From assembly GCA_024683255.1 (NCBI GenBank), contig JAIKYL010000223.1, positions 1-10,816 of the forward strand: DNA of 10,816 nucleotides, in the 5' to 3' direction. Positions 2,840-10,816 of this stretch are shown here, piece after piece (positions within the stretch are counted from its first letter, which is position 1; every line of letters begins with the position of its first letter). The notes beneath the pieces are model-generated. The model searched no databases. It saw only the letters and a program-made list of their open reading frames with translations, and was not told where the DNA came from. The translations under genes were made by a program, and so were the position numbers. The stretch is from Bacteroidales bacterium. GTDB taxonomy: Bacteria; Bacteroidota; Bacteroidia; Bacteroidales; UBA932.

Positions 2840-3133
2840 ATGAAAGCTATATTTGTCGTTTACAATCAGGCTTACAATCAAGAGATTGTAGAACTGCTGG
2901 AGAAGATGGGACAGCGGGGTTATACCGTTTGGGAAGAGATTGGCGGACGGGGCTCCGTGGACGGTGAACCGCATCTGGGCAACCACGCCTGGCCCACGCA
3001 GAACCACGCCGTCCTGTCGGTGGTGGAGGACTCCCTGGCGCCTTCCGTTATGGAGGCGCTCCGCCAACTGGATGCCGATAACCCCAAGTTGGGCCTGCGC
3101 GCTTATGTGCTTCCTGTGGAAGCGGCATTGTAA
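2840..3133 (+). CDS. Small PII-like protein next to an RND pump
   Basis: This 97-residue protein begins MKAIFVVYNQAYNQEIVELL and carries the core segment WEEIGGRGSVDGEP near residues 31-44, followed by HAWPTQNHAVLSVV. The size, the beta-alpha-beta start and the second beta-alpha-beta half ending LRAYVLPVE suggest the ferredoxin-like fold of the PII/CutA superfamily. Small PII-like proteins beside RND efflux genes are known (the group called PII-NG was linked to heavy-metal RND pumps). I assign it there by resemblance and context, not by alignment. The classic uridylylated T-loop tyrosine motif of GlnB/GlnK is not visible, so direct nitrogen signalling is unlikely. It lies 36 nt after the pump gene and is probably co-transcribed with it. 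A role in sensing or modulating the pump is inference. ATG 2840 is the only plausible start. Confidence 0.8.
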   Translation: MKAIFVVYNQAYNQEIVELLEKMGQRGYTVWEEIGGRGSVDGEPHLGNHAWPTQNHAVLSVVEDSLAPSVMEALRQLDADNPKLGLRAYVLPVEAAL

Positions 3134-7835: not shown

Positions 7836-7837
7836 TT

Positions 7838-7863
7838 GTCATTCTGAACGAAGTGAAGAATCT
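7838..7863 (+). repeat. 26-bp dispersed palindromic repeat, copy B, containing a start codon
   Basis: Identical over 26 bp to copy A at 2811-2836. It begins 2 nt after the ricT stop and runs through the first 11 bases of the following reading frame. Its internal GTG AAG AAT (7853-7861) is the start of the GldH-like lipoprotein. Reading its other frame gives the SERSEES peptide, which is a translation artefact. Confidence 0.87.
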
Positions 7864-8284: not shown

Positions 8285-9138
8285 TGGGACACGGGAAACT
8301 ACGCAAATTTGCCGAAAATGAGACCTTCCGCTGTCTTTTGCAGCCGGATGCGTCACAGGTGCTCGCCAAGGAGACGGGTTCCCGGGAGCTGAAGCTCCGG
8401 AACCATGCCATCAAAGGCCGATGGGGGGAGGAAATGTTCGGCAATGACCATCCCATCGTTCTGGAACTGGGCTGCGGCAAGGGAGAATACACCATTGCCC
8501 TGGCCGAAAAGCATCCGGAAATCAATTACATCGGCGTGGATATCAAAGGTGCGCGTCTTTGGAAAGGCGCCAAATACGCTACGGAAAACGCCCTTCCCAA
8601 CGTGGCCTTCCTGCGTACGCGCATAGAGTTCATAGAGGCGTTCTTCGGCCCCGGGGAGGTGAGCGAAATCTGGCTCACTTTCTCCGACCCGCAGCTCCGG
8701 GGCAGCGAAAACAGCCGGCTTTCCTCGCCCCTTTTCCTGGAGCGTTACCGCAAATTCCTAAAGCCCGGTGGTATAGTTCATCTCAAAACAGACTCCCGCT
8801 TCCTCTACGAATACACTCAGGCCGTCTGTAGGGTGAATAGTCTTACCATACTAGCCTCTGGTACAGATATTTATCATCAGGGCGTCATGCCCGGCCCCGA
8901 CCGGGCATCTGAGACCCCCGATCAAGTCGGGGGTGACGGTTGGGCGGCTGTTACTCAGGTGCAGACTTTCTATGAGAAGATGTTCCTGGAGATGGGGCTG
9001 CCTATAACCTACATGGCTTTCTGTATTGAGCATGAGGGCCCCTACGCATTTCCGGGGGAGGCTTTTGATCATGACTACTGGCTGGAGGCCGAAGGTCCCC
9101 GCCGCAGCTTCTCTCACCAGCCCAACAAGAAGGGCTGA
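8284..9138 (+). CDS. trmB: tRNA (guanine-46-N7)-methyltransferase with in-frame repeat insertion
   Basis: A 284-residue SAM-dependent enzyme that makes m7G46 in the tRNA variable loop. The SAM-binding motif I is ELGCGKGEYT (residues 61-70), INYIGVDIKGARLW gives motif II, and FSDPQ (133-137) followed by NSRLSSPLFLERYRKFL is the TrmB catalytic and tRNA-binding region. PGGIVHLKTDS and the C-terminal TFYEKMFLEMGLPITYMAF complete the fold. The frame is open upstream to 8068, but ATG 8284 overlaps the preceding stop and matches the family N-terminus (KLRKFAEN). Residues 201-218 are an insertion encoded by a 54-bp double-hairpin element between the DIYH and VQTFYE segments, where relatives have only a short loop. 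The enzyme may well remain active, because the insert is in frame and falls in a loop. It appears to be the last gene of the run. Confidence 0.93.
   Translation: MGHGKLRKFAENETFRCLLQPDASQVLAKETGSRELKLRNHAIKGRWGEEMFGNDHPIVLELGCGKGEYTIALAEKHPEINYIGVDIKGARLWKGAKYATENALPNVAFLRTRIEFIEAFFGPGEVSEIWLTFSDPQLRGSENSRLSSPLFLERYRKFLKPGGIVHLKTDSRFLYEYTQAVCRVNSLTILASGTDIYHQGVMPGPDRASETPDQVGGDGWAAVTQVQTFYEKMFLEMGLPITYMAFCIEHEGPYAFPGEAFDHDYWLEAEGPRRSFSHQPNKKG
8884..8937. repeat. 54-bp double-hairpin repeat inserted in trmB
   Basis: The element is bounded by GTCA and its reverse complement TGAC and holds two hairpins. In the first, ATGCCCGG (8887-8894) pairs with CCGGGCAT (8901-8908). In the second, ACCCCCGA (8914-8921) pairs with TCGGGGGT (8927-8934). 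The left half, GTCAT-hairpin-ATCT, has the same end bases as the repeats at 2811 and 7838, and the right half is a similar unit in inverted orientation. Its 54 bp equal 18 codons with no stop, so trmB stays open. Confidence 0.82.
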
Positions 9139-9158
9139 ATAAAAAATTTTAAAAATAT

Positions 9159-9189
9159 CTTGCATTCTCAAGATTTCTTTGTAACTTGC
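9159..9189 (+). promoter_or_regulatory. Promoter of glnN leader
   Basis: CTTG (9159-9162) and TAACTTGC (from 9182) are separated by exactly 19 nt, which fits the Bacteroidota TTG-N19-TAnnTTTG promoter with one base missing from the -7 T-run. It lies in an AT-rich stretch directly after the trmB stop. Transcription would begin near 9192-9196, about 20 nt before the leader peptide start. Confidence 0.62.
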
Positions 9190-9213
9190 ACTCGAATTTG
9201 GTTGTGCAAAGCA

Positions 9214-9294
9214 GTGAAACTTTACCGTAATAACCAGCAGCAGGAGCAGCAGTCCCAGAACCAGCAGGTCCCGGGTGCTTCTTGTTGCGTATAA
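9214..9294 (+). CDS. Glutamine-rich leader peptide of glutamine synthetase
   Basis: A 26-codon frame from GTG 9214 to TAA 9292-9294. It begins MKLYRNN, continues QQQEQQSQNQQ (residues 8-18) and ends VPGASCCV. Eight of the codons are CAG for glutamine, all within residues 8-18. Three Asn and one Glu codon lie nearby. It sits between a promoter and an intrinsic terminator, upstream of glutamine synthetase. This is where a leader peptide that senses charged tRNA-Gln would be expected. GTG is chosen because no ATG exists upstream in frame. A TTG at 9202 would leave only a few nucleotides of 5' leader. The peptide is probably made only as a sensor; no membrane or secretion signal is seen. The alternative is that the codons are a chance CAG-rich stretch in a noncoding RNA. 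Confidence 0.72.
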   Translation: MKLYRNNQQQEQQSQNQQVPGASCCV

Positions 9295-9296
9295 TT

Positions 9297-9353
9297 CCAG
9301 CCGTATGCGGCACAGTTTAAAAGAGGCAAATATTTAACTTATACAGAGGCTGG
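9297..9353 (+). promoter_or_regulatory. Antiterminator alternative to the glnN leader terminator
   Basis: CCAGCC (9297-9302) can pair with GGCTGG (9348-9353), and GTATG (9303-9307) continues by pairing with TATAC (9340-9344, the last pair a G-U). Only three bases are bulged (9345-9347). The stem is 11 bp with a 32-nt loop. Its 3' arm uses six of the thirteen bases of the terminator 5' arm, so the two structures exclude each other. The 5' arm starts 2 nt after the leader stop codon, within reach of a terminating ribosome. Confidence 0.68.
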
Positions 9354-9379
9354 TCCCGAGGGGATCAGCCTCTTTTTTT
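9345..9379 (+). terminator. Intrinsic terminator in the glnN leader (attenuator)
   Basis: A 13-bp stem. AGAGGCTGGTCCC (9345-9357) pairs with GGGATCAGCCTCT (9361-9373), with one G-U pair and a GAG loop. The stem runs directly into a T-tract (9373-9379). It lies 28 nt before the glnN start codon, downstream of the leader promoter, so it would stop transcripts before the gene. Confidence 0.88.
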
Positions 9380-9406
9380 GTGAAGGTTATAAAACAACTA
9401 ATATTT

Positions 9407-10816
9407 ATGGTTATGGACAGATTTGATTTGGTAAAGGAATCCTTCGAACGGAAGGTGGTTCCGGCAGAAGTCCCCGCAGGTAAGACTTCCGATTATTTCG
9501 GTGAACTGGTGTTCGACCGCAAGAAGATGTGCAAGTATCTGGATGCCGACAGCCTCCAGGCCCTGCTTGCCTGCATCGAGGGTGGCAAGCCCCTTGACCG
9601 CAAAACGGCCGACGGCGTGGCCCGCGGCATGAAGGAATGGGCTATGGAGCATGGTGTAACCCATGTTACCCACTGGTTCCAGCCCCTCACCGAAGGTACG
9701 GCCGAAAAGCATGACTCGCTCATTGACTACGACGGAAAGGGCGGCGTTATTGAGACTTTTGACGGAAAGATGCTGGCCCAGCAGGAACCCGATGCTTCGT
9801 CCTTCCCCAGCGGCGGTATCCGCGCCACTTTCGAGGCCCGCGGTTACACAGCCTGGGATCCTACCTCCCCGGTGTTCATCCTGGATGATACGCTCTGTAT
9901 CCCTACCGTTTTCATTTCCTATACCGGCGAGGCCCTGGATTACAAGACCCCGCTCAAGAAGGCCCTCAAAGCCGTCAGCGATGCGGCTGTACCGGTCTGC
10001 AAGCTTTTCGACCCTTCCGTTACCAAAGTCTATTCTTACCTGGGTTGGGAGCAGGAGTATTTCCTGGTGGACGAGTCGCTGTATGCTGCCCGTACGGATC
10101 TCATGATCACCGGACGCACCCTCTTCGGCCACAATTCTTCCAAGAACCAGCAGCTGGACGACCATTATTTCGGCGCCATTCCTTCCCGTGTGGCAGCCTT
10201 TATGCGGGACCTGGAGGTTGCCGGTCACAAGCTGGGCATTCCGCTCAAGACCCGTCACAACGAGGTGGCTCCCAACCAGTTTGAGCTGGCTCCCATCTAC
10301 GGAGAAACCAACCTGTCCAATGACCAGAACCAGATAGTGATGAACCTCATGTCCAAGATTGCCCGCAAGCATGGTTTTGTGGTGCTCCTGCATGAGAAGC
10401 CTTTTGATGGTGTAAACGGTTCAGGTAAGCACAACAACTGGTCCCTGGGAACGGACAAGGGTACGCAGCTGCTGGCTCCCGGCAAGGATGCCAAGGGTAA
10501 CCTCCAGTTCGTCACCTTCTTCGTGAATGTGCTGGCGGCCGTGCAGAAGCACAACGCCTTGCTCAAGGCCTCCATCGCCAGCGCCACCAACGCGCACCGC
10601 CTGGGCGCCAACGAGGCTCCGCCCGCAATTGTATCGGCCTTCCTGGGTCGCACCATGACGGAAGTGCTGCACAAGCTCCTGGAAGTCCCGTCCGACACAC
10701 CCATTGAGATAGCCGGCAAGAAGGGCAAGAGCGTGGGTCTGGTGGAGATTCCGGAAATCTTCGTGGACAACACGGACCGCAACCGTACTTCCCCGTTCGC
10801 CTTCACCGGTAACCGC
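9407..10816 (+). CDS. glnN: Type III glutamine synthetase (3' partial)
   Basis: GSIII makes glutamine from glutamate, ammonia and ATP in the cytosol and is the typical Bacteroidota glutamine synthetase. Members are about 700-730 residues, and 470 are visible here with the frame open to the window end. Family segments seen in order are HWFQPLTEGTAEKHD (about 84-98), SGGIRATFEARGYTAWDP (135-152), LFGHNSSKNQQLDDHYFG (239-256), RHNEVAPNQFELAPIYGE (283-300), HEKPFDGVNGSGKHNNW (329-345), and NRTSPFAFTGNR (459-470) at the edge. The glutamate- and ATP-binding residues in the EVAPNQFE and NGSGKHNN regions are intact. ATG 9407 is used, and ATG 9413 two codons later is equally possible. It lies 28 nt after a leader terminator preceded by a glutamine-codon leader peptide, which suggests control by transcription attenuation. 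The GlnA-type (GSI) fold motifs and adenylylation site are not expected in this class. Confidence 0.97.
   Translation, partial: MVMDRFDLVKESFERKVVPAEVPAGKTSDYFGELVFDRKKMCKYLDADSLQALLACIEGGKPLDRKTADGVARGMKEWAMEHGVTHVTHWFQPLTEGTAEKHDSLIDYDGKGGVIETFDGKMLAQQEPDASSFPSGGIRATFEARGYTAWDPTSPVFILDDTLCIPTVFISYTGEALDYKTPLKKALKAVSDAAVPVCKLFDPSVTKVYSYLGWEQEYFLVDESLYAARTDLMITGRTLFGHNSSKNQQLDDHYFGAIPSRVAAFMRDLEVAGHKLGIPLKTRHNEVAPNQFELAPIYGETNLSNDQNQIVMNLMSKIARKHGFVVLLHEKPFDGVNGSGKHNNWSLGTDKGTQLLAPGKDAKGNLQFVTFFVNVLAAVQKHNALLKASIASATNAHRLGANEAPPAIVSAFLGRTMTEVLHKLLEVPSDTPIEIAGKKGKSVGLVEIPEIFVDNTDRNRTSPFAFTGNR

Follow-up and report, generated by a model that had tools for sequence, protein, structure and literature searches.

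A putative ribosome-mediated attenuator with glutamine and asparagine codons upstream of glnN and other nitrogen assimilation genes in Bacteroidales

RESULTS

Organization of the glnN upstream region

The stretch of DNA analyzed here, hereafter called the window, comprises the 10,816 nucleotides of contig JAIKYL010000223.1 (assembly GCA_024683255.1, from a Bacteroidales bacterium). It breaks off within glnN, the gene of a type III glutamine synthetase (GSIII), and the GSIII_N and Gln-synt_C domains were both found in the glnN product. Upstream of glnN lies a short leader region, which a preliminary description made from the sequence alone had interpreted as a transcription attenuator reading glutamine (Gln) codons. 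Its features are listed below, in window coordinates.

9160-9189, + strand: promoter-like pair TTG-N19-TAACTTGC read from the sequence, with TTG at 9160-9162, 19 nt, and TAACTTGC at 9182-9189
9214-9291, + strand: leader open reading frame (ORF) with a GTG start and 26 codons, product MKLYRNNQQQEQQSQNQQVPGASCCV; TAA stop at 9292-9294
9229-9267, + strand: amide-codon cluster NNQQQEQQSQNQQ, with 8 CAG and 3 asparagine (Asn) codons; CAG at residues 8-18
9277-9282, + strand: outer 5′ strand (GCTTCT) of an auxiliary hairpin, within the ORF; partner at 9322-9327
9285-9288, + strand: inner 5′ strand (TTGC, GTGC in many relatives) of the auxiliary hairpin; partner at 9310-9313
9297-9302, + strand: putative antiterminator arm CCAGCC, 2 nt past the leader stop; pairs with 9348-9353
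9310-9313, + strand: inner 3′ strand (GCAC) of the auxiliary hairpin
9322-9327, + strand: outer 3′ strand (AGAGGC) of the auxiliary hairpin
9345-9373, + strand: intrinsic terminator stem-loop of 13 pairs, free energy (dG) -23.5 kcal/mol; its 5′ arm includes GGCTGG at 9348-9353
9374-9379, + strand: T-run of the terminator, six T
9413-10816, + strand: glnN, glutamine synthetase type III, starting with ATG at 9413 and leaving the window; PF12437 (GSIII_N, E value 3.5e-74) and PF00120

The promoter-like pair, which we take to be the -33 and -7 boxes of Bacteroidales type, the 26-codon ORF with its eight CAG codons and the 13-bp terminator with its T-run had all been described initially, and they are present. 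In contrast, the 11-bp alternative stem of that description was not recovered; the conserved competitor of the terminator is a 6-bp pairing between CCAGCC and GGCTGG, together with the auxiliary hairpin.

We compared the Gln codon run with randomized sequences. The best stretch of 14 codons in the 300 nt upstream of glnN contains 8 Gln codons. Dinucleotide shuffles of the same region averaged 2.0 and never exceeded 5, so that 0/3000 reached the value of the window. The count of Gln plus Asn codons was matched by 0/200 shuffles each for 23 of 25 leaders, and by 5/200 and 6/200 for L125 and L129, respectively. Of 25 leaders, 21 have a TAnnTTG or TAnnTTTG box within the 70 nt that precede the leader start, versus 5.3 expected by shuffling. 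The threshold for calling a leader was set at 7 or more Gln/Asn codons within 14 codons of a short ORF. In 699,080 strand-bases (loci L090-L117 and L228-L287), 43 distinct ORFs reached it; 42 are leaders before target genes (see below), and one is not. A chance trinucleotide repeat was considered as the source of the Gln run and excluded by the shuffles and by the relatives.

Leaders upstream of glnN in related genomes

A contig search with the GlnN protein of the window yielded 80 loci that were kept (L001-L080). The closest are L001 (93% identity, the contig ending 49 nt upstream of the gene) and L002 (91%), both from metagenome-assembled genomes, that of L002 originating from water buffalo rumen. 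The genus to which the genome of L001 was assigned by a classification tool provided an incomplete sample of 151 genomes, 110 of which have a GSIII match. We examined 71 glnN upstream regions, leaving out approximately 50 GSIII matches (47 at 56 to 59% identity, four at 64 to 68%, and partial ones); L089, the single case looked at among those further matches, is devoid of a leader. The leader was found in 21 of 22 upstream regions when GlnN was at least 91% identical to that of the window, in 2 of 22 at 85 to 90% identity, in none of 19 at 75 to 84%, and in 3 of 8 below 75%. In the 85 to 90% class, L125 and L129 have leaders with five Gln codons and terminators, which fall under the threshold and were not counted. 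The preliminary description had called for such a comparison, and close relatives bore it out, since their leaders also show in-frame insertions and deletions and covariation of the terminator and its competing arm, as detailed below.

Two loci at the same places as L010 and L005, L083 and L084, have before glnN a leader with an Asn-rich stretch (NNN..N.N), a CCAGCC arm and a GGCTGG terminator; they are under the threshold and uncounted. In L085, tandem terminators are located 263 and 104 nt before glnN, and a Gln/Asn leader is seen only before the first.

Conservation of the reading frame and of RNA pairing

We aligned the DNA of 22 leaders (alignment A1) and conducted gap and codon tests on pairs of its 15 core members. 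Within the ORF, each of the 112 gap runs found in these pairs was a multiple of three, versus 36 of 279 past the stop, in a test that is not fully independent because the sequences had been picked for their intact ORF and the pairs drawn from 15 sequences depend on one another. In the last 18 codons, 836 non-synonymous and 160 synonymous differences were counted. The N-termini and many residues vary between leaders, and the amide run persists. As judged from these alignments, the reading frame and the amide codons are conserved, and the peptide sequence is not.

The terminator is also conserved as a structure, with 95.1% of the alignment cells paired and 6 of 12 pairs altered on both sides (10 such cells, versus 1.8 in shuffled alignments). 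The putative antiterminator pairing CCAGCC:GGCTGG holds in 99.2% of the cells of the 22 aligned sequences, versus at most 52.4% after sliding. Across gene families the two arms covary, appearing as CCAGCC:GGCTGG, CCGGTC:GACCGG, ACCGGTC:GGCCGGT, ACGGCC:GGCCGT and CGTCGG:CCGACC. The auxiliary hairpin (9277-9327), which we examined as a pause (1:2) hairpin, has the antiterminator arm inside its loop. It covaries as well, with 18 both-side cells versus 8.2 after shuffling, and its outer pair reads GCTTC/GAAGC or GTTTC/GAAAC in relatives.

Leaders upstream of other nitrogen genes

A covariance model was built from the leader alignment and run on 300 genomes, 267 of which gave matches at E ≤ 0.1, weak ones being common. 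We followed 44 matches downstream, and 39 have a Gln/Asn-rich ORF, while five do not (L202 and L204-L207; 33 to 38 bits). The genes behind the 39 leaders are glnN, asnB, glnK-amtB, a purF-like gene, a porin-like gene adjoining glnK, and a CP-ATP-grasp gene. Names were given after family scans of representatives; the purF-like homologue scored below the cut-off, and "porin-like" is a guess, the scanned homologue of L346 having no NCBIfam match. In scans started from the gene side, a leader over the threshold was found in 12 of 30 glnK and 9 of 30 asnB upstream regions. In total, 86 of 230 scanned regions passed, a figure that does not represent a rate because the regions were chosen in several ways and some places are in two sets.

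These searches gave 74 distinct Gln/Asn-rich leaders, 38 of them before glnN, 15 before asnB, 17 before glnK-amtB (L218 included) and 4 before other genes. A terminator of -10 kcal/mol or lower is present in 71 of the 74, and pairing of the arm with the 5′ strand of the terminator is above the mean of shuffled spacers in 69. We then modeled the position of the ribosome. Moving the ribosome from the middle amide codon to the stop weakened the arm:terminator pairing by 3 kcal/mol or more in 72 of 74 leaders, whereas shuffled spacers gave a mean of 38 and a maximum of 45 leaders. The proposal of a Gln-codon attenuator before glnN is thus supported by the relatives, but it was too narrow: the Asn codons belong to the device, and the same device is found before asnB and glnK-amtB.

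In L345, a leader is followed on one strand, over approximately 15 kb, by glnN, gltB, gltD, pyrG, a purF-like gene, glnK, amtB and asnB. Behind its leader, another close relative, L346, has glnN, gltB, gltD, pyrG, glnK, amtB, a porin-like gene, asnB, a purF-like gene and glmS. Families were scanned for eight L345 and two L346 genes, and the others were named by likeness. We infer that each cluster is a single transcript.

Other genes were found in this context. In L201 a Gln/Asn-rich leader precedes a CP-ATP-grasp/Alpha-E gene pair, and L347 (4605-8349) has a similar pair with transglutaminase and AstE/AspA genes after glnN and asnB; there are hints that this uncharacterized set may belong to nitrogen metabolism. 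Gln/Asn-rich leaders also precede a porin-like gene in L224, L227 (11318-11477) and L371, and the gene adjoins glnK in the first two.

Codon composition and tRNA charging

The median ratio of Gln to Gln-plus-Asn codons is 0.59 before glnN, 0.40 before asnB and 0.42 before glnK. The difference between glnN and asnB (P = 2.3e-5) was also found with gene-side leaders only (25 glnN and 10 asnB; medians of 0.57 and 0.40, P = 2.2e-4), with the reservation, to be held against the interpretation given below, that these P values overstate independence because the leaders share ancestry. At the extremes, asnB leaders have 8 to 10 Asn and 0 or 1 Gln codons (L262, L263, L268 and L271), and glnN leaders have 7 or 8 Gln and no Asn codons (L199, L210 and L212). 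Gln is encoded by CAG 387 times and by CAA 10 times in the leaders.

Of 20 genomes of relatives, all gave a match for glutaminyl-tRNA synthetase (GlnRS; 19 over the curated cut-off and one partial or truncated) and none for GatB, whose control search was positive in 12 of 14 known genomes. Given the presence of GlnRS and the failure to find GatB, free glutamine should be attached directly to tRNA-Gln. It is plausible from these gene contents that tRNA-Gln charging serves as a readout of free glutamine in the relatives. All 20 genomes also have sigma-54, which leaves room for other nitrogen control. The independence from sigma-54 and PII that had initially been suggested is not supported by this result, and PII is itself a target gene.

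Distribution of the leaders and tryptophan-codon versions

The device as a wide feature of Bacteroidales was unsupported, since the GSIII loci L011-L080 have at most 5 Gln/Asn per 14 codons (for L056, within the 146 nt available upstream). Upstream of asnB, the threshold was reached in 1 of the 29 best-matching loci of the family sample (L288; 48 genomes with a match) and in 0 of 28 of the order sample (60 genomes). No Gln/Asn leader was found in 15 model matches examined in the order sample, in which 53 of 198 genomes have a match. The family sample gave at least six Gln/Asn leaders: L288, L367 and L368 (both glnN), L380 (glnK), L371 (porin-like gene) and L370, behind which no ORF was seen. 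In the sampled genomes, all occurrences of the putative device fall within the family.

The model also matched upstream of one same TrpB-like gene in eight loci of the family sample (L369, L372-L377 and L379), and a short ORF with the sequence FFFWRAWFW is listed in seven of the eight. The TrpB-like assignment comes from scans of L373 and L379 (TIGR01415). The matches score 37 to 46 bits; the weaker among them overlap with the leaderless matches of the order sample (up to 39 bits), and the stronger ones exceed these. By their codons and position, the TrpB-like loci look like a tryptophan (Trp) version of the leader, that is, a natural positive control.

Other features of the window

Outside the leader region, a small protein with a P-II domain (PF00543) is encoded at 2840-3130, directly after an RND pump gene. 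A repeat-like stretch at approximately 7837-7863 reads CHSERSEES in one frame, just past the PSP1 gene, and a GC-rich inverted repeat lies at approximately 8881-8940 within a Methyltransf_4 (TrmB-like) reading frame.

DISCUSSION

Leader-peptide attenuators control the trp, his, leu, thr and phe operons of proteobacteria. Window positions 9160-9380 very probably represent a ribosome-mediated transcription attenuator of glnN. Like those attenuators, the region has a short ORF with end-product codons, an intrinsic terminator and a competing antiterminator arm, but the codons are those of Gln and Asn and the targets are genes of ammonium assimilation (glnN, glnK-amtB and asnB). Four features of the classical systems were found, namely, an end-product codon cluster, a constrained frame, an intrinsic terminator, and a competing arm predicted, across the set of leaders, to be masked by a ribosome at the stop. 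The device looks like a classical ribosome-mediated attenuator with Gln/Asn specificity and a nitrogen-assimilation regulon.

We propose that when charged tRNA-Gln is scarce, the ribosome would stall at the CAG codons of the 26-codon frame. The CCAGCC arm would then be free to pair with the 5′ half of the terminator, and the polymerase would read into glnN. The ribosome would reach the stop when glutamine is ample; by covering the arm there, it would allow the terminator to form. Three steps of this scheme are inferred: translation of the leader ORF, stalling of ribosomes on it, and a readthrough that tracks tRNA charging. More generally, the leaders are likely to be switches that turn genes on when charged tRNA-Gln or tRNA-Asn is short.

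Several results weigh against this interpretation. There is no leader over the threshold in 45 of the 71 glnN upstream regions examined; L094, with a close glnN (95%), has none, and L123 and L124, whose glnN is 87% identical to that of the window, have a strong terminator approximately 75 nt before glnN and no Gln-rich ORF. Asn codons outnumber Gln codons in some glnN leaders (e.g., L120, L150, L213 and L227), and no difference in Gln/Asn share was seen between the leaders of asnB and those of glnK (P = 0.23). Within A1, just one antiterminator pair changes on both sides, and 162 of 500 shuffles match this. Taken singly, the arm pairing beats shuffled spacers (P < 0.05) in 26 of 74 leaders, with P = 0.26 for the window. 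When the stall test was performed with partition functions, it separated 58 of 74 leaders and not the window, where arm pairing was 0.62, 0.55 and 0.46 with a stalled ribosome and 0.66 with the ribosome at the stop. Leaders rich in particular codons can also be deceptive: according to the available part of a study on Actinobacteria, altering the candidate codons of the Streptomyces coelicolor ilvB leader had no effect (PMC1262725). The case for the competing arms rests on conservation and on the whole set of leaders.

A variant compatible with attenuation is that the leaders sense a joint shortage of Gln and Asn, with no specificity from gene to gene. Both codons are present in most leaders, and the glnK median of 0.42 is intermediate and, as stated above, not different from that of asnB. 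Nevertheless, the near-pure Asn leaders of asnB and the Asn-free leaders of glnN speak for gene-wise specificity, and we regard a joint response as possible, if rather unlikely.

It is improbable that the terminator is governed by a glutamine-binding RNA (riboswitch) or a protein, the Gln-rich ORF being incidental. The covarying auxiliary hairpin would fit such an element, and glutamine-binding RNAs of the glnA motif accompany the same kinds of genes in cyanobacteria, as reported in the available part of PMC2864571. However, the recurring element is an in-frame codon run whose mix shifts to Asn before asnB. Moreover, no match at the gathering score was obtained for the window with the glutamine riboswitch (RF01739 and RF01704), the T-box, Bacteroid-trp (RF01692) or other Rfam families, nor with any Rfam family for six loci of relatives (L091, L373, L379, L371, L214 and L217). 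Rfam release 15 was used and assumed to contain those models, the first two accessions being taken from the same part of PMC2864571. Five weak matches with E values up to 5 in the 9140-9430 region of the window were implausible.

Slightly less probable still is arrest of the ribosome by the Gln/Asn-rich nascent peptide itself, perhaps when a small molecule is sensed, instead of by uncharged tRNA. Arrest peptides likewise work via alternative hairpins, but the leader peptide is not conserved, as the excess of non-synonymous differences indicates (836 versus 160); what recurs is the amide residues, in a Gln/Asn mix that depends on the gene. Last, that the ORF encodes a small protein with its own function, the terminator setting a fixed basal level of glnN, would agree with the frame-preserving indels and is very unlikely given the lack of a conserved peptide, the concerted changes of the competing arms and the same device at several nitrogen genes.

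Other regulatory leaders have features in common with the attenuator proposed here. T-box leaders read tRNA charging and control a terminator by binding tRNA directly, and the Bacteroid-trp motif is a trp leader. The device would share with the T-box the readout of tRNA charging and the control of a terminator, without the direct binding of tRNA, and the window has no T-box match in Rfam. The Bacteroid-trp motif is likewise a putative cis-regulatory element in Bacteroidetes (PMC2864571, available part), but neither the window nor the Trp-codon leaders L373 and L379 match RF01692 at the gathering score. The glutamine riboswitch, or glnA RNA, accompanies almost the same genes, namely, those of PII, glutamine synthetase, glutamate synthase and ammonium transporters. 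However, as described in the same part of that source, it is a metabolite-binding RNA of cyanobacteria, whereas the device here consists of the codons of a leader frame and has no Rfam match. The gltD motif is another RNA candidate, located before a glutamate synthase gene, with glutamine as the proposed signal. In the available part of PMC8632094, it is presented as a riboswitch candidate whose hairpin appears to occlude the ribosome site, and no Gln-codon ORF is described there.

Attenuator-type leaders of trp, leuS and ilvB are reported for Actinobacteria in the available part of PMC1262725, and neither that paper nor PMC2965389 mentions glutamine or asparagine in its available part. Among the matches listed in full-text literature, which mostly excludes subscription papers and preprints, none describes a leader with Gln or Asn codons upstream of a glutamine synthetase gene, asnB or amtB. 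In Prevotella ruminicola 23, the homologues respond to ammonium, with amtB, glnK, asnB, glnN and gltBD strongly induced at ammonium limitation. This is reported in the available part of PMC5552732, which elsewhere links expression of these genes to non-limiting ammonium, and in which the terms "attenuat-" and "leader" do not occur.

We lean slightly towards a broader view. In this group of Bacteroidales, attenuators with Gln codons for glutamine synthetase, Asn codons for asparagine synthetase and both for PII-AmtB may run the whole nitrogen regulon through tRNA-Gln and tRNA-Asn charging, on an interchangeable RNA scaffold. Glutamine is the nitrogen signal of the cell, and its usual readers are PII, sigma-54/NtrC and feedback or, in cyanobacteria, a riboswitch. 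If our view is correct, leader peptides would have in these bacteria the role that glutamine riboswitches or PII/NtrC-type regulators play elsewhere, and an entire regulon would take the charging of glutamine's own tRNA as its nitrogen signal. Leaders with Gln, Asn and Trp codons would also amount to a natural codon-swap series, in which one could directly test how attenuator specificity evolves.

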